Below, in pieces: positions 7,201-32,516 of a stretch of 32,610 nt of DNA. The DNA is from a virus, in IMG/VR virus record IMGVR_UViG_3300046777_001290, positions 1 to 32,610 of that record; one strand, given 5' to 3'. The notes beneath the pieces are model-generated. The model did not search any database, was not told where the DNA came from, and saw only the letters and a program-made list of their open reading frames with translations. Each line of letters opens with the position of its first letter. Within the stretch, counting starts at the first letter, position 1. Made by a program: the position numbers and the translations under genes.

Positions 7201-10154
7201 TTTTAACTAAAATTTATATTAATAACGAGCAGATAGATTTAAAAGAAGATGTTTCGATACCTCTTAACTTTAACATTGCTGATATTAGAGAACCTGAAAA
7301 AAGAAGTACTACATGGAGCAAAACTGTTATACTACCAGGCTCTACTTTTAACAATGAATTGTTTTCGAATATATGGAATGTTAATGCAGTCATTAATAGT
7401 ACAGGCACTACTAACTTTACTCCGAATTTTAATCCGAATTTAAAAGCACAGGCAGAAATTACTTACAATGAGGCAATTCAGTTTAAAGGTATTTGTCAAC
7501 TATTAAATGTAAACGTAACTGATAAATACGAGATAGAGTATGAGGTGGCTTTTTTTGGCGAGTTACAGAATGTATATCAGTTTTTTAATAATAGTTACTT
7601 AAGAGACATTGATTTAAGTGAATACAATCATACTTACACATTAAATAATCAGTATTTAAGCTGGTATAGACCAATAGGTCAAGGCTATCTATACCCAATG
7701 ATAGATTACGGAAAGGGAATAAATAATCAGTTTAAAGTAAGTGATATTTACCCATCTGTTTATGCGAAAACAATTTTAGATAAAATGTTTAGCGAAGCTG
7801 GTTTTAGTTATCAATCAAATTTTTTAGATAGTGATTTGTTTAAAAGATTAATCATTCCTTATAACGGGCAAAGCCAATTAACACTATCGAATGATGCAAT
7901 AGAGAATAGAAGTTTTAGAGCAACTAAAAATACTTTACAAACTTTAGAATATGCTAGTACAGGAACTACTTTTTATTCAGATTTAGAATTTGGTGGTGCA
8001 AGTGCCGAAATTACTTATGAAGATGAAGTTACAGAACCTAATTTTGATCCTGGTAATGTTTTTACATTTAATACTTTGTTCAAAGCAAGTAGAAGTGGTA
8101 ATTATAGTTTCAAAACATTTTTAAAATGTTATGTTACTTATTACCCAATGAATCCTGCAACTTTTAATTTTTATAGTTATGATGCACCAAAAACAATAGC
8201 TAATTTAGAAATTAGAAGAATAAGAAGTTTTGCTAATGATATAATTATTGCAAATGTTCCTATTACAATAGTGCCATTTGGGAATAATGGAAATTCAAAT
8301 CAATTTAATTTGTTTTCTAAAACTACTGCAATAAATGATAACGATATTACATTTACAAATGAGGGTAGTTTAGAAACACAAGTTTATTTAAACGCTAATG
8401 ACATTGTTGAATGTGTTATACACACTTCTGATTCTGTTTATTTGTTAAACAGACCTGACCCAAGTGATCCGTTAAATAACATAGAAGTAGAAGGCGACTT
8501 AAACATATTATCTGATTCATATTTTACAGGAAAACTTTTAGATTCAACTATTCAAGAAGGTGATACAGTTATTTTAAGTGATGTACTGCCTGACAAAATA
8601 AAGCAAAGCGATTTTTTTAATTCAATAATTAAGATGTTTAATTTATTTATTGAAATAGATAAGTCAGATGCTAAAAAATTAATTATTGAACCTAGACCAT
8701 CTTTTTACACAAGTGGAGTTACAAATGACTGGTCACAAAAATTAGATTACTCAAAGGAAACAAAAATTATTCCAATGGGTGAGCTTAATAATAAAGTCTA
8801 CAAATATACATACAAAGAGGATAATGATTTCTTTAATAATAAGTATAAACAGCAGACAGGTGAAATATACGGGGAGCAAAAATATGAAGTATTTAATGAC
8901 TTTTTAAAAGGCGAAGTAAATAATGAATTAATTTTTAGTCCGACACCATTAGTAGATACTATTGGACATGATAGGATAATACCTAAAATTTATTCAGTAA
9001 ATACAAATGGGCAAATAGGTTATACAGCATCAAACATTAGAATATTATATTATGCAGGTGTTAAAACTACTAATTATCAATGGTCTCACATAGCAACAAG
9101 TGGAACTACTCAAAGAAGTATTTATGCTTATGCTGGACATTTAGATGATCCATTAAATCCAACTATTGATATTAATTATGGTATACCTAGACAAATTTTT
9201 TATACATTAAATAGATGGACTTCAAATAATTTATATAACACATATTGGAAAGATTACATTGAACAGATAGCAGACAAAGATAGTAAACTATTTACAGGAT
9301 ATTTTTTAATCAATGAATTTGACATTCAAGATTTAGATTTTAGAGATACTTTCTTTTTTGAGAATGAATATTGGAGACTAAATAAAATAATTGATTACGA
9401 CCGAGTAAATAACCAACCAACTAAATGTGAGTTTATTAAGTTAAAGACTTTGCCACCATTTGTAGCAGATGAAGGCTTTGATACCTTTGGAGGATTAGAA
9501 GATGGAAACATAAACGCTCCAACAGGAAAAATAATAAACAACTACAATAATAATAATGTAGCAGATGGTGCAATAGTAAGTGGATTTAATAATAATGTTC
9601 AAAGTGGTAATGGTGTTTTAGTAATAGGCAATGACATTATGATTTCACCTAATGCTAGGAATATAAATGTAACAGCTTCAAGTGGAATAAGTGTATTTGA
9701 TTCAAGTAATGTAAGTATAACAAGTTCAACAGGTGTAACTGTTTTTGATGGTGTTTCAAATGTAAGCGTAACAAATAGCTCAGGAATAACAGTAACAGAA
9801 TCAAACGTAACTTACAATAATGGAATTAAAACATTAAATAGTGTTAATTATAAAAAATATGTTGCTTTACTTAATCAAACAGGGACAAATGATCCAACTG
9901 CACACGTTTTAGAAAACACATTAAGCTCGGGAATAGTATGGACTAGAGATACAACAGGCGAATACTTGGGAACAGTAACAGGGGAATTTACCGAAAATAA
10001 AACAGTTGCTTTTTTAACTATCACAGATAATGGAGAGGCAATGGCAGGAAGAAAAAATTCAAACACAATAGCTGTATATACTTATAACTCAAGCGGAGCA
10101 GCAACAGATGGTAAATTGACAAATTCAAGTATAGAGATACGAGTTTATTCATAA
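7197..10154 (+). CDS. Large tail tip or receptor-binding protein with beta-solenoid C-terminus
   Basis: At 985 residues this is the largest protein in the window. The first ~780 residues are mixed beta structure and contain DIREPEKRSTTWSKTVILPGS near the start, a segment recurrent in Bacteroidota phage tail proteins. Residues ~780-880 hold short tandem Ser-Thr-Asn-Val repeats (ASSGISVFDSSNVSITSSTG and similar), as in trimeric beta-helix fibres. A compact 100-residue C-terminal domain follows. This points to a tail-tip protein that carries a receptor-binding end. The direct neighbours are the distal tail-like protein and the tape measure. Confidence 0.6.
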   Translation: MILTKIYINNEQIDLKEDVSIPLNFNIADIREPEKRSTTWSKTVILPGSTFNNELFSNIWNVNAVINSTGTTNFTPNFNPNLKAQAEITYNEAIQFKGICQLLNVNVTDKYEIEYEVAFFGELQNVYQFFNNSYLRDIDLSEYNHTYTLNNQYLSWYRPIGQGYLYPMIDYGKGINNQFKVSDIYPSVYAKTILDKMFSEAGFSYQSNFLDSDLFKRLIIPYNGQSQLTLSNDAIENRSFRATKNTLQTLEYASTGTTFYSDLEFGGASAEITYEDEVTEPNFDPGNVFTFNTLFKASRSGNYSFKTFLKCYVTYYPMNPATFNFYSYDAPKTIANLEIRRIRSFANDIIIANVPITIVPFGNNGNSNQFNLFSKTTAINDNDITFTNEGSLETQVYLNANDIVECVIHTSDSVYLLNRPDPSDPLNNIEVEGDLNILSDSYFTGKLLDSTIQEGDTVILSDVLPDKIKQSDFFNSIIKMFNLFIEIDKSDAKKLIIEPRPSFYTSGVTNDWSQKLDYSKETKIIPMGELNNKVYKYTYKEDNDFFNNKYKQQTGEIYGEQKYEVFNDFLKGEVNNELIFSPTPLVDTIGHDRIIPKIYSVNTNGQIGYTASNIRILYYAGVKTTNYQWSHIATSGTTQRSIYAYAGHLDDPLNPTIDINYGIPRQIFYTLNRWTSNNLYNTYWKDYIEQIADKDSKLFTGYFLINEFDIQDLDFRDTFFFENEYWRLNKIIDYDRVNNQPTKCEFIKLKTLPPFVADEGFDTFGGLEDGNINAPTGKIINNYNNNNVADGAIVSGFNNNVQSGNGVLVIGNDIMISPNARNINVTASSGISVFDSSNVSITSSTGVTVFDGVSNVSVTNSSGITVTESNVTYNNGIKTLNSVNYKKYVALLNQTGTNDPTAHVLENTLSSGIVWTRDTTGEYLGTVTGEFTENKTVAFLTITDNGEAMAGRKNSNTIAVYTYNSSGAATDGKLTNSSIEIRVYS

Positions 10155-23085: not shown

Positions 23086-23351
23086 ATGATGAACTAAACT
23101 ACTGGGAAAGCTACATATACGATAAATTAGATGAGTATAATGCAGCTAATAATACTAAGGCTGATTTGGGCTTATGGTATTTGGAAATGTTTATTAATGA
23201 AGAGTACACCACATTCGCATTAAACTTCTTAAATGATAAATGTGATAGAGTAGGCAGCCACATAATAAAGCAAAGCATGAACCAGTACGAAATGGAGTTT
23301 ATTGAAAGCTTTGACAAAGAATTAAACAAATTATACAAAACAATTAATTAA
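23079..23351 (+). CDS. Hypothetical acidic helical protein
   Basis: A 90-residue acidic protein, mostly helical, rich in Glu, Asp, Tyr and Asn (LNYWESYIYDKLDEYNAANN...). No family is recognised. Its TAA stop lies inside the AAC outer box of the attC-like site that begins the first cassette unit, so this gene either belongs to a cassette itself or borders the insertion. A weak GTTAA match at 23081 to the expected cassette start is not enough to decide. Confidence 0.5.
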   Translation: MLNDELNYWESYIYDKLDEYNAANNTKADLGLWYLEMFINEEYTTFALNFLNDKCDRVGSHIIKQSMNQYEMEFIESFDKELNKLYKTIN

Positions 23352-23469
23352 CGTTGAGTATATGAGGCGTTGCCTTCACAAATGTTGATAAAATGAACAG
23401 AAATATAAATTTAGTATAGACTTAAAAAAAGACCACATAGGCAATGCCTTATATACATTGTTATGTGGC
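23350..23469 (+). repeat. attC-like palindromic site S0
   Basis: Outer box ..AAC (23350-23352), spacer GTTGA, arm GTATATGAGGCGTTGCCT (23358-23375); complementary arm AGGCAATGCCTTATATAC (23439-23456), spacer ATT, outer box GTTATGTGGC (23460-23469). The 18-bp arms differ at two positions, both G-T pairs on the plus strand. Unequal spacers between outer and inner boxes are typical of attC. Confidence 0.8.
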
Positions 23470-23479
23470 GTTAATTATT

Positions 23480-23683
23480 ATGAAAAATTTAGAAGAAGCA
23501 TTAGAAAATGCAAAAAACACAATGAGAAAAATGGATATTAATGAACTTAATAATGAGATTGTTAATATTGGATTGAAGTATGCTGATGGAACAGAGATAC
23601 AAAATTTAACTGTGAGCGAATTTGAAACACTATGTAATTTTATTACTGAAATATTAAAAAGACCTACTAAATATATTAGATAG
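23480..23683 (+). CDS. Cassette gene: hypothetical 67-residue protein
   Basis: A small helical protein (MKNLEEALENAKNTMRKMDI... NLTVSEFETLCNFITEILKRP) of unknown function. The ATG at 23480 is preferred; an in-frame ATG at 23444 would start inside the palindrome arm. The gene fills the space between the GTT box and the AAC box of one cassette, with 10-nt leader spacing from the box, as cassette genes usually do. It has no promoter of its own. Confidence 0.55.
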   Translation: MKNLEEALENAKNTMRKMDINELNNEIVNIGLKYADGTEIQNLTVSEFETLCNFITEILKRPTKYIR

Positions 23684-23690
23684 GTTTAAT

Positions 23691-23742
23691 GCCACATAAC
23701 TTACTTCTTTGCGCTACTTTATAGCGACTTATTTAAAATTAA
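23691..23742 (+). repeat. Terminal cassette site, copy A
   Basis: GCCACATAAC, then TTACTTCTTTGCG and a CGCTA/TAGCG hairpin, then ACTTATTTAAAA. From ATAAC (23696) on it nearly equals the end of the second array (32306-32348). Besides one C/T change, the only difference is that the hairpin (CGCTACTTTATAGCG) is present in the reverse-complement orientation. Confidence 0.75.
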
Positions 23743-23755
23743 ATTAAAAACAAAT

Positions 23756-27243: not shown

Positions 27244-27247
27244 CACA

Positions 27248-27331
27248 TGATGAGTAACGGCATCAGTAATAATAATATTTTAATCCCATTGGTGAGTAGA
27301 GACCGTTACCTCGAAAGCCGATGGGTTTTTT
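27248..27331 (+). ncRNA. Structured leader or small RNA with kissing-loop/pseudoknot and terminator
   Basis: The ~84-nt RNA between promoter and T-run has no reading frame. TGATG (27248-27252) pairs with CATCA (27261-27265). Its loop holds GTAACGG (27254-27260), complementary to CCGTTAC (27303-27309). That second segment lies in the loop of the terminator hairpin CCCATTGG (27285-27292)/CCGATGGG (27318-27325), followed by six T. The two hairpins can thus kiss, or the long GTAACGG/CCGTTAC stem can form instead. It is either an attenuator for the replication genes or a separate small RNA. Confidence 0.6.
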
Positions 27332-28044: not shown

Positions 28045-28889
28045 ACCAACTAAATATTATTAATGGATTTTCAGCTTTAGAAGTTGAAGCCATGAAAAAA
28101 GTAAGTGAACATTTAAAACCTTATGTTCAGGCAAAGAATGAAAAAAAAATAATTCATTCTGACAAACAAGAAGCATTAACTAAAATTTATGCAATAGTTG
28201 TAAAAACAATTGAATTAAGTGGTGAAAATAAAAAGTATAATTTAGATAACCAACAAACTAAAAATGTAGCTGGGTTTATTTACGACTTAGTTATTGAGCA
28301 ATATAAAGCTGCAACATTATCTGAATTAGATTTATCCTTTACAAAAGGTTTAATTGGCGATTACGGAGACTTCGTTGGATTTGGTGTAATAACATTTACT
28401 AAATGGCTAAAAGGTTATTATAGCTCACCTAAACGTGAACAGGCAATGAAGGAGTGGTTTAAATACCAAATACCGACAACTGAAAAACCAATGACTAAAT
28501 TTTTTGAGCAAAATTTGCAGATAGCTAATTACTTTTTTTCAATATGCGAAGAAAAAAACTCGGAACGATTTGATACAATAATTAACCATGAAGACAATGT
28601 GATGCATCTTCCTTCTATTTACGAATTTCTATACGCTAATTATCAAATATCATTTTCACCTGAAAGCAAAGAACTAATCACAAAGAAAGCAAAGATTAAA
28701 TACAATAATTATATTAACAAAGGTGGTTTAAAAAAAGCTGATCCAAAAGGCTACGAACAATTAATTAATTCTGTTAAGTTTGGAGAAAATAGAACATTTG
28801 ACTATTACATTAAAACACAGGCTTTAATCTTCTTAACTTTAAAACTAAAGCAACAAGGTAAAACATTTGATAATTTAAAAAGAATATGA
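28041..28889 (+). CDS. Unknown protein, probably replication-associated
   Basis: A 282-residue helical protein with a conserved-looking centre, YDLVIEQYKAATLSELDLSFTKGLIGDYGDFVGFGVITFTKWLKGYYSSPKREQAMKEW. It is translationally coupled (ATGA) to the replication initiator-like gene. That pairing suggests a helicase loader or primosome partner, but no Walker motif is present, so an ATPase-type loader is excluded. Its stop is two bases before the first GTT box of the second cassette array, so it marks the left edge of the insertion. Confidence 0.55.
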   Translation: MNQLNIINGFSALEVEAMKKVSEHLKPYVQAKNEKKIIHSDKQEALTKIYAIVVKTIELSGENKKYNLDNQQTKNVAGFIYDLVIEQYKAATLSELDLSFTKGLIGDYGDFVGFGVITFTKWLKGYYSSPKREQAMKEWFKYQIPTTEKPMTKFFEQNLQIANYFFSICEEKNSERFDTIINHEDNVMHLPSIYEFLYANYQISFSPESKELITKKAKIKYNNYINKGGLKKADPKGYEQLINSVKFGENRTFDYYIKTQALIFLTLKLKQQGKTFDNLKRI

Positions 28890-28897
28890 TGTTATGA

Positions 28898-29030
28898 ATA
28901 TAACGTTTTGCAGCCTTATTTAGTGCGGGCTTAATAGCACTAACTTAATTTAAAAAAACAAATGTTATGGATAACGAAAAACTGTCAAACGAAGCCGAGA
29001 ACCCCGCATTGAATAAGGGTGCTGTTAGCC
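28898..29030 (+). repeat. attC-like site S1
   Basis: Outer box ATATAAC (28898-28904), spacer, 23-nt arm (28910-28932); complementary arm (29000-29022) with four differences, T spacer, outer box GTTAGCC (29024-29030). The start codon of a gene (28967) lies in the centre. GTTAT..ATAAC pairs also occur at 28891-28904 and 28964-28975. Confidence 0.65.
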
Positions 29031-29188
29031 GTTCGTTGCTTTCAGATGTTAATTATTGGAAGCAAAGATGCCTATTAGCTGAACAATGCTTAGAAGAAAG
29101 CCCATGTGACCCTGACATAACAGCCGACCAAATAAAGGCTTGGAATGCTTACCACAAGTTCATTAGTTGGGCAGGCAATGACCGCTAA
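28967..29188 (+). CDS. Cassette gene read through an attC arm: hypothetical protein
   Basis: A 73-residue protein. Residues ~10-25 (AENPALNKGAVSRSLL) are encoded by the right arm and GTT box of site S1. The rest (VNYWKQRCLLAEQCLEESPCDPDITADQIKAWNAYHKFI) lies in the cassette and looks like a small helical domain of the type common in Bacteroidota phages. Its last codons AAT GAC CGC TAA are part of the next outer box, so start and stop both lie in recombination sites. Function unknown. Confidence 0.55.
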   Translation: MDNEKLSNEAENPALNKGAVSRSLLSDVNYWKQRCLLAEQCLEESPCDPDITADQIKAWNAYHKFISWAGNDR

Positions 29189-29380
29189 CGGTATGGCGGT
29201 TGGAGAAGTGCGTAATTATTAACGATAAATTAAAAATGGAACACGAAAAATTAATTGAAAAAGCAAAAGAAATGCTTGGTAAAGCTGATAATGGCTCAAA
29301 TGATTGCAAGCAATACAATAATGGCTTTATTGATGGTTTAATGTACAATATTAAAGCATTGCGCCAACCGCCTGTTAGCG
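29183..29380 (+). repeat. attC-like site S2
   Basis: Outer box CGCTAAC (29183-29189), spacer GGTAT, arm GGCGGTTGG (29195-29203); exact complementary arm CCAACCGCC (29364-29372), spacer T, outer box GTTAGCG (29374-29380). The 160-nt centre contains the first part of the gene at 29236. Confidence 0.75.
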
Positions 29381-29478
29381 GTTCGTTGCACAAGGAGTGT
29401 GTATATTATAATTTATCAGACCAAGCTGCTTGCCCAAACACAAATGTATGTCAAAATTGTAAAATCAATGACCGCTAA
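29236..29478 (+). CDS. Cassette gene read through an attC arm: Cys-rich-tailed protein
   Basis: The ATG at 29236 (leader TTAAAAATG) lies in the centre of site S2; an upstream in-frame TTG at 29200 would fall in the left arm and is not preferred. The 80-residue product has a helical N-terminus (EHEKLIEKAKEMLGKADNGSNDCKQYNNGFIDGLMYNIKAL) and an arm-encoded link RQPPVSGSL. The Cys-rich tail ECVYYNLSDQAACPNTNVCQNC has four cysteines that could bind zinc. The frame closes in the next outer box. The two halves may have been joined by recombination. Confidence 0.5.
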   Translation: MEHEKLIEKAKEMLGKADNGSNDCKQYNNGFIDGLMYNIKALRQPPVSGSLHKECVYYNLSDQAACPNTNVCQNCKINDR

Positions 29479-29560
29479 CGGTTTGCATATAAGCGAAGGC
29501 ACAAATAGCGATGGCATTGTGCGTTGGAATTTTGGCTTTTGCTTATGTGCTGTTATGCGA
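29473..29560 (+). repeat. attC-like site S3
   Basis: Outer box CGCTAAC (29473-29479), spacer GGTTT, arm GCATATAAGCGAAGGC (29485-29500); complementary arm GCTTTTGCTTATGTGC (29535-29550), spacer T, outer box GTTATGCGA (29552-29560). All three arm differences are G-T pairs on the plus strand. At about 88 nt and without any gene inside, it is the most attC-like site in the window. Confidence 0.85.
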
Positions 29561-29589
29561 GGTGCTTTTAACAAATTAAAATTAGAATT

Positions 29590-30465
29590 ATGAAGAAAAA
29601 TTTATTAGTATCATTTTCGGGAGGCGAAACATCGGGCTTTATGGCTCAATGGATTAAAAAACATTTAGAGGATAACTATGATAGAGTAGTTTATGTATTT
29701 GCCAATACAGGACTTGAAAATGAGCAGACTTTAGAATTTGTAGAACAATGCGATAACTATTGGAAACTAAATGTGCAATGGGTTGAAGCATCTGTAAATT
29801 TTGGCGAAAGAAAAGGAACTGGCTATTGGCTTACTGATTTTGATAATGCAAAAAGAAAAGGAGAGCCATTTGAGGCTATAATACAAAAGTATGGAATACC
29901 TAACCAAGCGTTCCCACATTGCACAAGAGAATTAAAACAAGCACCAATTAAAGCATTTGCAAAAGATTGGTTTGATGGCGAAAAATACGATACTGCAATA
30001 GGTATTAGAATTGATGAAGCAGATAGAATGAACGCAAAGGCAAAAGAAATGCGTTTTATTTATCCATTGATTAAACAAGATATGATACCTGCAACAAAGC
30101 CAATGATTAACTTCTTTTGGAAGCAAATGCACTTTAGATTGGATTTGAAAGGTTATCAATGGAATTGCATTACTTGTTGGAAAAAGGCAGATAAAAAGCT
30201 ATTTCAGATATACAAAGAAAATCCGAAAGCATTTGACTTTATGGATAGAATGGAACGCAAATATGCAAGAATAGGCAATGAGTTTATCAAAGATTTAACT
30301 GCAAAGGATAGAGTATTTTTTAGAGGAAACAGAAGTGCAACCGATATAATCTGCCAAGCAGAAAATTGGAAAGGAATTATTAAAAATGATGCAGATGAAT
30401 ACTCATATCAAATTGACTTACTCGGTGGGGATAGCTGTGAGGTCTTTTCGGAGTGCAGTTCGTAG
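29590..30465 (+). CDS. Cassette gene: phage PAPS reductase-like PP-loop protein
   Basis: A 291-residue member of the phosphoadenosine phosphosulfate reductase superfamily. It has PP-loop SFSGGETSG at 8-16, HCTRELK at 110-116, GIRIDEADR at 138-146 and a C-I-T-C pair at 193-196 that could hold an iron-sulfur cluster. Such proteins activate substrates with ATP and transfer or reduce sulfur. Phage versions have been linked to sulfur metabolism and, by similarity to DndC, to DNA sulfur modification. It is the first gene of the largest cassette, and its stop is 6 bp before the AAC box. Confidence 0.8.
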   Translation: MKKNLLVSFSGGETSGFMAQWIKKHLEDNYDRVVYVFANTGLENEQTLEFVEQCDNYWKLNVQWVEASVNFGERKGTGYWLTDFDNAKRKGEPFEAIIQKYGIPNQAFPHCTRELKQAPIKAFAKDWFDGEKYDTAIGIRIDEADRMNAKAKEMRFIYPLIKQDMIPATKPMINFFWKQMHFRLDLKGYQWNCITCWKKADKKLFQIYKENPKAFDFMDRMERKYARIGNEFIKDLTAKDRVFFRGNRSATDIICQAENWKGIIKNDADEYSYQIDLLGGDSCEVFSECSS

Positions 30466-30471
30466 CATTTC

Positions 30472-31059
30472 GCATAACGGTATTCGGCTAAACGCAGTAT
30501 TTAAAAACTTTTGCGAGGGATTTTAAACTTAATAACTAAAAATAGATAAAATGAAAAACGACAAACACAAACTATTAGCAACTGCCAAAGAATTGAGAGG
30601 AACGCTAAAAACAATTGAAAATTTACTTGAAGGGTATTCAGGTATTGAAGGCAACGAAAACTATATAAAATATTGCCTTCAAAAAGCAAAACAAGCCAAT
30701 GAGGATGATGCTACATTGAAACAACTTTATGATGATACTTACAATGTAGATATGGCAAAACGAAAAGCTATAAATGTTGCACCACTATACAAAATTGTAG
30801 AGAAGCATTTTAAGTTATTGGACGATATGGACACAGCAGGGGATATGTTTAAACCAAAGTGGTGCAAAATTACATCGGCAGTTGAGCAAATGCACAGATT
30901 AAGATGGCTTGTTGCTTATGTTGAAGGTGATAACAAAAATGAAGAAGGATTGATGGAAGTAAATGGAAATTGTTTTAAGAAAGAAGAACGAACTGTTTTG
31001 AACTTTTAACTGTGCGGTTGGAAAGTTTTTAAATATTGTCGTTTTAGCCGTTGTTATGC
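30472..31059 (+). repeat. attC-like site S4 with a gene in its centre
   Basis: Outer box GCATAAC (30472-30478), spacer GGTATT, arm CGGCTAAACG (30485-30494); complementary arm CGTTTTAGCCG (31040-31050), spacer TT, outer box GTTATGC (31053-31059). The arms are about 545 nt apart and enclose the whole gene 30551-31009, far more than known attC centres. Confidence 0.6.
30551..31009 (+). CDS. Gene inside attC-like site S4: hypothetical protein
   Basis: A 152-residue helical, charged protein (KHKLLATAKELRGTLKTIENLLEGYSG... PLYKIVEKHFKLLDDMDTAGDMFKPKWCKITSAVEQMHRLRWLVAYVEG). No family is recognised. It has a normal A-rich leader (TAAAAATAGATAAAATG) 57 bp after the left arm and ends 30 bp before the right arm. 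By the cassette rule it travels together with the PAPS reductase-like gene as a two-gene cassette, one gene before and one within the recombination site. Confidence 0.55.
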   Translation: MKNDKHKLLATAKELRGTLKTIENLLEGYSGIEGNENYIKYCLQKAKQANEDDATLKQLYDDTYNVDMAKRKAINVAPLYKIVEKHFKLLDDMDTAGDMFKPKWCKITSAVEQMHRLRWLVAYVEGDNKNEEGLMEVNGNCFKKEERTVLNF

Positions 31060-31122
31060 GAAGGTGTGGTAACTCAAAACTTCAAATTATAGACAAACTT
31101 TCCTGCCACACTTTTGCATAAC
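31053..31122 (+). mobile_element. Gene-less cassette
   Basis: GTTATGCGAAGGTGTGG (31053-31069) and CCACACTTTTGCATAAC (31106-31122) are inverted copies over 17 nt with two differences, both G-T pairs on the plus strand. Only 36 bp without a reading frame separate them. By the boundary rule this is one complete cassette whose only other content is site S5. Confidence 0.6.
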
Positions 31123-31214
31123 GTATCGGGGCTTTGCGTAGTAGCCCTTAGTTGGAACTTAAAATTAACCACGACACTTGATAGGGCTATTACGCAAAAC
31201 CCTTGTTATGTGCC
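31116..31214 (+). repeat. attC-like site S5
   Basis: Outer box GCATAAC (31116-31122), spacer GTATC, 21-nt arm (31128-31148) beginning GGGGCTTTGCG; complementary arm (31183-31203), spacer T, outer box GTTATGTGCC (31205-31214). The arms differ at three of 21 positions, two of them G-T pairs. Total length is about 99 nt. Confidence 0.85.
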
Positions 31215-31229
31215 GTTTTTATTCAGATT

Positions 31230-31436
31230 ATGACAGCAAAAGAAAAACAGGAACAATTCCTTAAAGAACTTAATGAGTTGTTGAGAAAACACAACGCAGA
31301 ACTATGTATTGAAGATTTTGGTCACGACTATTCACAAGATTGGAAAATTGTTGTTGATTTTCAATTTGACGAATCTTTAGAAGATACTGGAATTGTTCCG
31401 CAATTAAAAATTGGTAGCTTTTTGGATGGTCGCTAA
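31230..31436 (+). CDS. Cassette gene: hypothetical 68-residue protein
   Basis: A small acidic protein: a helix (KEKQEQFLKELNELLRKHNAELCIED) and then strands (WKIVVDFQFDES, VPQLKIGSFLDGR). A frame-extending TTG at 31203 lies in the recombination site, so ATG 31230 is chosen, 15 nt after the GTT box. The stop is 3 bp before the next AAC box. Start box GTTATGTGCC and end box GGCACATAAC are exact complements. The helix-plus-beta pattern is frequent in unknown phage proteins; function unknown. Confidence 0.6.
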   Translation: MTAKEKQEQFLKELNELLRKHNAELCIEDFGHDYSQDWKIVVDFQFDESLEDTGIVPQLKIGSFLDGR

Positions 31437-31439
31437 AAT

Positions 31440-31575
31440 GGCACATAACGTTGAAGCATTGGCGAAGGCAGGGAATAGTGGCACTTCTGTTCAATTACTT
31501 ACCAATGCTCAATAGGATTACAAATGTTCAAAATTAGTACGTCAGCCCTGCTTTTGCCAATGCAATGTTAGTGGC
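31440..31575 (+). repeat. attC-like site S6
   Basis: Outer box GGCACATAAC (31440-31449), spacer GTTGAA, arm GCATTGGCGAAGGCAGGG (31456-31473); complementary arm CCCTGCTTTTGCCAATGC (31546-31563), spacer AAT, outer box GTTAGTGGC (31567-31575). The 18-bp arms differ at two positions, both G-T pairs on the plus strand. Confidence 0.85.
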
Positions 31576-31631
31576 TGCCGTTTTCGATACAGTCTTTGGT
31601 CGGACTTTAATTAAAAACCAATTTTAATAAA

Positions 31632-31994
31632 ATGGAAGCAGTAAGTTTCAACCCCGATTACTTGGCTAAAATTGCCAAAGTATGCCATCAAGCAAACAAA
31701 GCGTTTTGCGAAGCTAATGACGACAATTCTCAAAAGGATTGGAACGAAGCAGAAGAATGGCAAAGAGAAAGTGCTATCAAAGGTGTAGCGTTTCGTATTA
31801 ACAACCCTGATGCTGGACACGATGCACAACACAATTCTTGGATGCAAGAAAAAGTTGATGCAGGTTGGGTATTTGGGGATGTAAAAGATGCAGAAGCAAA
31901 AACACACCCTTGTATTGTTCCTTTTGAAAAATTACCAAAGTTCCAACAGCAAAAAGACGCTTTGTTTTGTTCAGTTGTTGATAGCTTGAAGTAA
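31632..31994 (+). CDS. Cassette gene: RyR-domain protein
   Basis: A 120-residue protein whose body (~38-118) matches the bacterial and phage RyR domain: W-x-x-x-x-x-x-Q-R-E-S-A-I-K-G-V then NPDAGHDAQHNSWMQEKVDAGW, FGDVKDAEAKTHPCIVPFEKLP and QQKDALFCSVV. RyR repeats of ryanodine receptors belong to this family; prokaryotic members are often found in phages and near conflict systems and may bind nucleotide-like ligands. It is the only gene of its cassette. It starts 56 bp after the GTT box, with 46 bp between its stop and the next AAC box. Confidence 0.8.
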   Translation: MEAVSFNPDYLAKIAKVCHQANKAFCEANDDNSQKDWNEAEEWQRESAIKGVAFRINNPDAGHDAQHNSWMQEKVDAGWVFGDVKDAEAKTHPCIVPFEKLPKFQQQKDALFCSVVDSLK

Positions 31995-32040
31995 AATTAT
32001 TGGTGTCGTAGGTCGGCTCGTTTTGGGTCGTCCTACGGTT

Positions 32041-32209
32041 GCCACTAACGTTTTGCGGCTTTGCGAAGTTCAATTAAAAACTAATAATTATGAATGAAAA
32101 ATTAATAAGCGAATACGCTTACAGAGTTAGAAAAAGCAATGATTTAATGGAAGTAAAATCTTTATTGAAGCAGTTTGGTGAAGAATTTTGCAAAGCCGCT
32201 GTTATAAGC
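32041..32209 (+). repeat. attC-like site S7
   Basis: Outer box GCCACTAAC (32041-32049), spacer GTTTT, arm GCGGCTTTGCGAAGTTC (32055-32071); complementary arm GAATTTTGCAAAGCCGC (32183-32199), spacer T, outer box GTTATAAGC (32201-32209). Arms differ at two of 17 positions, both G-T pairs. The next gene starts in the centre and runs through the right arm. Confidence 0.85.
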
Positions 32210-32296
32210 AGTTGCGATTGCAAAGATAATGAATGTTGTTACTATTGCGAATTTGAAAAAACGGGTACAAGAAACCTTACAATGCCGTCAGATTAG
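32090..32296 (+). CDS. Cassette gene read through an attC arm: Cys-rich protein
   Basis: A 68-residue protein starting inside site S7 (ATAATTATG). A helical part (NEKLISEYAYRVRKSNDLMEVKSLLKQFG) is followed by EEFCKAAVIS, encoded by the right arm and GTT box. The tail SCDCKDNECCYYCEFEK is Cys-rich and could be a small zinc knuckle. It ends 5 bp before the AAC box of the terminal site. As at 29236, a helical start in the site centre is joined to a Cys-rich end in the cassette. Function unknown. Confidence 0.55.
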   Translation: MNEKLISEYAYRVRKSNDLMEVKSLLKQFGEEFCKAAVISSCDCKDNECCYYCEFEKTGTRNLTMPSD

Positions 32297-32301
32297 CAAT
32301 T

Positions 32302-32348
32302 GCTTATAACTTATTTCTTTGCGCTATAAAGTAGCGACTTATTTAAAA
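32302..32348 (+). repeat. Terminal cassette site, copy B
   Basis: GCTTATAAC, then TTATTTCTTTGCG and the hairpin CGCTATAAAGTAGCG, then ACTTATTTAAAA. Apart from its outer box and one C/T change it equals the end of cassette unit 1 (23696-23738), with the hairpin in inverse orientation. Confidence 0.75.
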
Positions 32349-32366
32349 AACTAAAAACAAATAAAC

Positions 32367-32516
32367 ATGAAAACAAACAATCAAACAAATCTATCACTAA
32401 TTTCAAAGACTGAATGGTGGTTAAAAAAATTAGATGTAAACTCAATCCGTGGAACATTCGATTGGAATCAGTATCAAAAATATTTAAAAGCTTTACAGAA
32501 TAATGAAAAAAAGTGA
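32367..32516 (+). CDS. Small hypothetical phage protein after the cassette array
   Basis: A 49-residue protein (starts MKTNNQTNLSLISKTEWWLK, then KLDVNSIRGTFDWNQYQKYL). It has a normal leader (AAAAACAAATAAACATG) like the one after the terminal site at 23756. It is helical with three Trp, and no family is recognised. It marks the return to phage sequence to the right of the array. Confidence 0.45.
   Translation: MKTNNQTNLSLISKTEWWLKKLDVNSIRGTFDWNQYQKYLKALQNNEKK

Follow-up and report, generated by a model that had tools for sequence, protein, structure and literature searches.

A probable integron-type gene cassette array without integrase and with inverted polarity in a phage genome

The closest described systems are the clusters of attC sites lacking integrases (CALINs) of phages and the canonical integrons themselves. 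Integrase-free attC clusters in phages, a Bacteroidota phage included, and their use by the integrase IntI1 are already published: Qi et al. 2023 (PMC9892861) described virulent phages that lack an integrase but have attC-like sites lying between short genes and methyltransferase genes, and IntI1 recombined five of the six virulent-phage sites tested, one of them from the Bacteroidota phage P12002L. Canonical integrons (class 1, Vibrio, Shewanella phage M16-3) have AAC and GTT boxes, exchange at G^TT, one favoured hairpin strand and a unidirectional array beside an acceptor, some of their cassettes being gene-less. These features of canonical integrons, with an attI-like flank as putative acceptor, are shared by a locus in a Bacteroidota virus, the IMG/VR record IMGVR_UViG_3300046777_001290, which was analysed over its whole length of 32,610 bp (classed linear; hereafter the window) and encodes a terminase, a portal protein, an Erf-like annealing protein, an exonuclease and NinG. 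In contrast with the canonical systems this locus is without an integrase, its hairpins lie 5' of the genes and the genes point towards the acceptor, whereas those of M16-3 point away from attI. We consider it probable that the region is an integron-type gene cassette array without integrase, which sits on an attI-like acceptor, is served by a recombinase in trans and has inverted polarity.

The window contains seven hairpin sites (S1 to S7, 28902-32203) and an additional one (SA) at 23350-23462. In a blind scan of the whole window for AAC, 3-7 nt, arm, loop, arm, 0-4 nt and GTT these eight ranked at the top (S6 44, S5 44, S1 41.5, SA 41, S7 40, S3 37.5, S4 34, S2 33), and the remainder scored 30 or less with the exception of one overlapping R-box pair (34). 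A second scan gave seven sites scoring at least 31 in 28851-32400, where 60 dinucleotide-shuffled versions averaged 0.017, and one chance-like site of this score in 1-23300. Scanning with a 12-mer pattern for GTT..AAC alone was not selective. The sites share an outer layout of AAC, a 5-6 nt spacer, the arms, a 1-3 nt spacer and GTT, and the genes of the array have a single common direction. Thus the seven attC-like palindromes between genes of one orientation, first recognised by a model from the letters alone (in the following the original prediction), are borne out by both scans. Insertion sequences and simple repeats were ruled out, as the sites have little sequence in common and the units carry no transposase. 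With at least two attC-type sites in line and no integrase nearby the region has what defines a CALIN; the orientation of attC relative to the gene is a usual rule outside this definition.

An indication of cassettes comes from base pairing. The inner arms pair within each site, and the outer boxes pair around one gene, i.e. R' (the GTT side) following a site with R'' (the AAC side) preceding the next one. Over the seven cassettes this same-gene R'/R'' complementarity has a summed score of 234, the best of 40,320 assignments, whereas pairing of R'' and R' belonging to the same site scores 128, which is unremarkable since 12,107 of the 40,320 assignments equal or exceed it. The single cassette at SA shows 34 for its own boxes and 9 within the site. 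Among 34 unique sites of cultured Flavobacterium phages (see below) own-cassette pairing averages 30.9 and within-site pairing 14.4, the former being higher in 32. In the window as in the Flavobacterium phages the unit is hence bounded by its own complementary R boxes. Complementarity around the gene but not around the site is the signature of circular cassettes, in which the two ends, once joined, would form one complete site.

Relatives were collected as viral contigs with NinG homologues, and their comparison shows where units begin and end. The left flank of the hotspot is constant up to ..GAATATAAC (window position 28904) and the right flank from TTA(C or T)TTCTTTGCGCTA onwards (window position 32311), while the 143 to 3406 bp in between are unrelated in content among the relatives. 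A scan with the right-flank pattern yielded 21 viral stretches, most of them with their own distinct neighbouring cassette. In L068 the site is empty, ..GTTATGAATATAAC being directly followed by TTACATCTTTGCGC, and it is filled in L005, L018, L019 and the window. L018 has one gene-less unit of 143 bp at precisely the site that is empty in L068; the same 143 bp are what L070 has in addition to L020, and in L070 they lie at the second acceptor, between a cassette and an acceptor that adjoin in L020. Two further single gains at the acceptor are a 291-bp unit (L019 compared to L067) and a 456-bp unit (L020 compared to L064). Finally, the PAPS-reductase-like cassette occurs in other phage contexts, with matches to window 29476-30478 (L041) and 29474-30481 (L040) and with a start at 29476 (L050), so that its boundaries elsewhere (29474-29476 and 30478-30481) enclose hairpin plus gene. 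At the second site window 23345-23746 is absent in L001, L011, L013 and L014; L001 was considered as a clean empty site and dropped as proof of insertion because the missing piece takes in the acceptor flank. In L002 (4707-5348) and L007 (6856-7510) the hotspot holds a DNA-methylase-looking gene without hairpins, which means that it accepts genes by another route too.

The breakpoints of the empty L068 site, the three single gains, the mumin6-1/mumin6-3 pair described below and the PAPS-reductase contexts are all located at the AAC box on the left-hand side (AA^C on the + strand, G^TT on the - strand). Every gain or loss seen consists of a hairpin and the gene downstream of it; as the breaks lie at the left AAC box, the hairpin travels with this downstream gene. 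The same follows from the position of the start codons, which lie within the hairpin loop in S1, S2 and S7 (S4 has its entire gene in the loop) and inside the upstream hairpin at 12 of the 34 Flavobacterium-phage sites: a gene that starts in its own hairpin must move together with it. The original prediction had expected relatives to differ by exactly one cassette, which they do, with breaks at the right-hand GTT, which is not where they are. It had also named breakpoints away from the GTT boxes as its refutation; read along the + strand this is what was found, and exchange at exactly G^TT holds on the minus strand only. The unit drawn there, with the hairpin after the gene, is refuted by the breaks at the left AAC box, and the constant attI-like right flank had been missed.

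Folding preference points in the same direction. The coding (+) strand gives the more stable fold at all eight window sites, at 19 of 19 unique sites of the window's phage group (which take in most of these eight; 35 G.T versus 4 A.C pairs) and at 31 of 34 Flavobacterium-phage sites, i.e. at 50 of 53 unique sites overall. In published integrons it is the non-coding "bottom" strand that recombines about 1000 times better, and in mobile integrons its fold has a mean stability advantage of about 2.4 kcal/mol (PMC5371416). With the same scan the canonical integron of M16-3 favoured the non-coding strand at its three best sites. The bias to one strand is thus present, and because the folding strand is the coding one here and the non-coding one in canonical integrons, polarity is reversed relative to the genes; the hairpin precedes the gene instead of following it.

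Further material is provided by cultured phages. A DNA search of the array against them returned gene-level matches and only one hairpin match, in Flavobacterium phage tooticki6-1. Muminvirus and related virulent phages of Flavobacterium sp. LMO6/LMO9 possess 8-13 sites each, located between early genes, and many of their cassettes contain DNA methyltransferases. All examined representatives have a common right flank (TAAC followed by TACAATATTACATG..), which in the closest set is 358-359 bp long and 100% identical, but the last cassette before it often differs. Phage mumin6-1 equals mumin6-3 plus one 506-bp unit (a 7-bp TAACGTT overlap and the 499 bp that separate the common ends), and elsewhere in the compared stretch the two are 99.9-100% identical. 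As these phages are isolates, metagenome assembly errors are excluded as a general explanation. These are the same phages and the same genes in which Nilsson et al. 2020 (PMC7077304) found a variable methyltransferase region in Baltic Flavobacterium phages; there the variable genes were treated as ordinary ones and the text mentions no cassette, palindrome or integrase. The arrays of the Muminvirus group apparently had not been recognised before. According to that study isolates lacking a specific methyltransferase that is present in others plate 3-4 orders of magnitude worse on LMO6. Several methyltransferase genes of the Flavobacterium phages sit in cassettes, and the gene behind this plating difference is likely one of them.

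A constant flank with empty and filled states behaves like attI, and we infer that it functions as acceptor. Its sequence differs between the window's group and the Flavobacterium group, therefore "attI-like" denotes behaviour and not homology. The putative acceptors at window 32316-32340 and 23705-23730, both in one phage, contain a 15-nt palindromic core (CGCTATAAAGTAGCG) that is inverted in one relative to the other.

The window, 32 related viral records and ten complete cultured phages were searched for the recombinase itself. None of them has an integron integrase or any other tyrosine recombinase above the cut-off, while the positive control M16-3 was found at E 6.5e-120; two of the 32 records belong to the window's own phage group and are about 33-35 kb long. 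One sub-threshold match (14 bits, 5.9e-4) occurred in G031, a record found through the RyR protein. The intI gene of a complete integron is accordingly missing from the window and the related phage records, which supports the integrase-less, CALIN-like array in a phage early region that had been proposed, and leaves an enzyme supplied in trans or one of a different type. Searching viral contigs with an integron-integrase profile yielded 320 relatives; the best 80 have 44-71% GC, and among these none is AT-rich and none has a comparable array. The array had no DNA match to plasmids; the pattern scan and the PAPS-reductase search of genome contigs, which did not reach host genomes, were negative as well, and an Rfam search of the window gave no matches.

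Several observations weigh against an integron-type array. Besides the missing integrase, Bacteroidota very rarely have complete integrons (PMC9024848), and the two phage groups lack a common sequence of the attI-like flank. The extrahelical bulge typical of attC is a clear single bulge in L018 and clear at few sites, many having a 1x1 mismatch near the spacer or none instead, and the 574-nt loop of S4 far exceeds known attC sizes. Hence a different, unnamed Bacteroidota recombinase (another tyrosine recombinase or an enzyme processing single-stranded DNA) could have converged on attC-like hairpins, giving cassettes by function that are not relatives of integrons. For this speak the failure to find IntI in any array-bearing phage searched, the rarity of integrons in the phylum, the best 80 integrase loci, of which none fits, as well as the reversed polarity and the atypical extrahelical bases. 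Nevertheless, we regard it as unlikely, since AAC/GTT boxes, G^TT crossover, folded-strand bias and cassette-specific R-box pairing all fit integron attC and a site from a Bacteroidota phage was recombined by IntI1 (PMC9892861). Considerably less probable is ordinary phage recombination at short conserved boundaries, with the palindromes being terminators or hairpins for translation control. The phage does have genes for Erf-like, exonuclease and NinG proteins, blocks are certainly also shuffled by homologous exchange between phages, and the mumin breakpoints have the 7-nt TAACGTT overlap in common. However, the boundaries share just about 3-7 nt, insertions occur repeatedly at the identical nucleotide regardless of whether the acceptor is empty or filled, and boundary homology predicts neither cassette-wise R'/R'' complementarity nor a single folding polarity. 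Canonical cassettes with crossover at the right-hand GTT, as originally drawn and with both boxes fitting the consensus, have virtually no standing left, because this polarity, when tested against the breakpoints, was contradicted by gains and losses that all bring a hairpin with its downstream gene, and because it would split in two the genes that start inside the upstream hairpin (S1, S2, S4, S7 and the Flavobacterium sites mentioned).

For an integron-type array served in trans the following mechanism can be proposed. Each unit would read C-spacer-L''-loop-L'-spacer-R'-gene-R''AA on the + strand, and once the circle is excised, its joined ends would bring the R boxes of the cassette together and so make up a full attC-like hairpin. 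A recombinase in trans, most likely an integron integrase of the host or of a mobile element, would fold the hairpin of the + strand, cut at AA^C and insert the circle at the acceptor 5'-G^TT of the minus strand; alternatively, units might be exchanged from site to site. The folding strand being the coding strand, polarity is opposite to that of canonical integrons. As the genes point towards the acceptor, they would be transcribed from upstream phage promoters and not from a Pc promoter.

The features of the window are collected in Table 1. The cargo named in the original prediction has profile matches, the PAPS-reductase-like gene of cassette 3 matching PF01507 (E 3e-5) and phrog_424 (6e-47) and the RyR-domain gene of cassette 6 matching PF02026 (E 6.8e-11). 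In cassette 4 R' and R'' are merely about 70 nt apart.

Table 1. Hairpin sites, cassettes and flanks of the window (ORF, open reading frame; a slash within a sequence marks the boundary).
Feature	Coordinates	Strand	Remarks
S1	AAC ends 28904, GTT starts 29024		
S2	AAC ends 29189, GTT starts 29374		
S3	AAC ends 29479, GTT starts 29552		
S4	AAC ends 30478, GTT starts 31053		
S5	AAC ends 31122, GTT starts 31205		
S6	AAC ends 31449, GTT starts 31567		
S7	AAC ends 32049, GTT starts 32201		
SA (site near 23.35 kb)	AAC ends 23352, GTT starts 23460		
Constant left flank of site 1, ends ..GTTATGAATATAA/C	28861..28903	+	identical up to AAC in L005, L018, L019, L066 and the empty L068; DNA differs beyond
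Cassette 1: S1 (28904-29024) and ORF 28967-29188	28904..29188	+	73 aa, start in loop, stop TAA in R'' box
Cassette 2: S2 (29189-29374) and ORF ending 29478	29189..29478	+	ATG 29236 in loop
Cassette 3: S3 (29479-29552) and PAPS-reductase-like gene 29590-30465	29479..30477	+	
Cassette 4: S4 with gene 30551-31009 (152 aa) inside 574-nt loop	30478..31121	+	R' at 31053, own R'' ends 31122
Cassette 5: S5 (31122-31205) and ORF about 31230-31436 (68 aa)	31122..31448	+	
Cassette 6: S6 (31449-31567) and RyR-domain gene 31632-31994	31449..32048	+	
Cassette 7: S7 (32049-32201) and ORF 32090-32296 (68 aa, start in loop)	32049..32309	+	
Putative attI-like acceptor of site 1, + strand C/TTATTTCTTTGCGCTATAAAGTAGCGACTTATTTAAAA	32310..32352	-	crossover AA^C on +, G^TT on -
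Single cassette at site 2: SA (23352-23460) and ORF	23352..23699	+	79 aa frame 23444-23683; ATG 23480 likely
Putative attI-like acceptor of site 2, C/TTACTTCTTTGCGCTACTTTATAGCGACTTATTTAAAA	23700..23744	-	site-1 pattern with 15-nt palindrome core inverted

Two further observations were made. Short hairpins or hairpin tips of cassettes that are otherwise unrelated share the 11-mer TCGTTTTAATG (L018 13149-13291, L005 about 7600-7650, L039 about 4190). Besides the array a conserved non-coding element is located between genes at window 27247-27330 (+). It comprises two hairpins, GATG..CATC and then CCCATTGG..CCGATGGG with T6 after it, and loop 1 (GTAACGG) is complementary to CCGTTAC inside hairpin 2. 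These kissing pairs co-vary in L003, L004 and L005 (three of seven doubly changed), and 132 of 132 cells are paired compared to 24-44% in slid controls. No Rfam match was obtained for the element at E<=1, and by its predicted pairing it is a candidate for an unnamed structured RNA.

Among the described CALIN phages P12002L has sites of the window-type layout. In its record (L076, 31100-32921) they lie around small genes and the methyltransferase gp38 and fold better on the coding strand; the published attC1 and attC2 could not be mapped to these sites. For P12002L "divergent directions" alone were noted (PMC9892861), Flavobacterium phages are not named in the main text of that study, and for its virulent-phage CALINs, unlike here, neither gain or loss between near-identical phages nor an acceptor was reported. 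As far as literature searches show, new are the reversed polarity, the gain and loss of single units between near-identical phages, the conserved acceptor with its empty state and the large arrays in cultured virulent Flavobacterium phages.

On a wider scale we tentatively suggest, as a possibility somewhat short of an even chance, that virulent phages of Bacteroidota have a site set aside as acceptor, without an integrase, and draw cassettes of inverted polarity from a shared pool via a recombinase in trans. Exchange would be frequent enough to separate near-identical isolates and would supply, besides other genes, the methyltransferases that decide on plating on restricting hosts, and the enzyme may be an unrecognised Bacteroidota recombinase. 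The inverted polarity together with the divergent sites may explain how such arrays escape current integron search tools. Integron-type recombination would be extended to phages of Bacteroidota, a group in which integrons are thought to be very rare, and this raises the question of the enzyme. The phage-host pairs of Flavobacterium LMO6/LMO9 make both the exchange and its effect on plating directly testable in culture. If true, virulent phages would have a site-specific and reusable route by which they gain and drop single genes.

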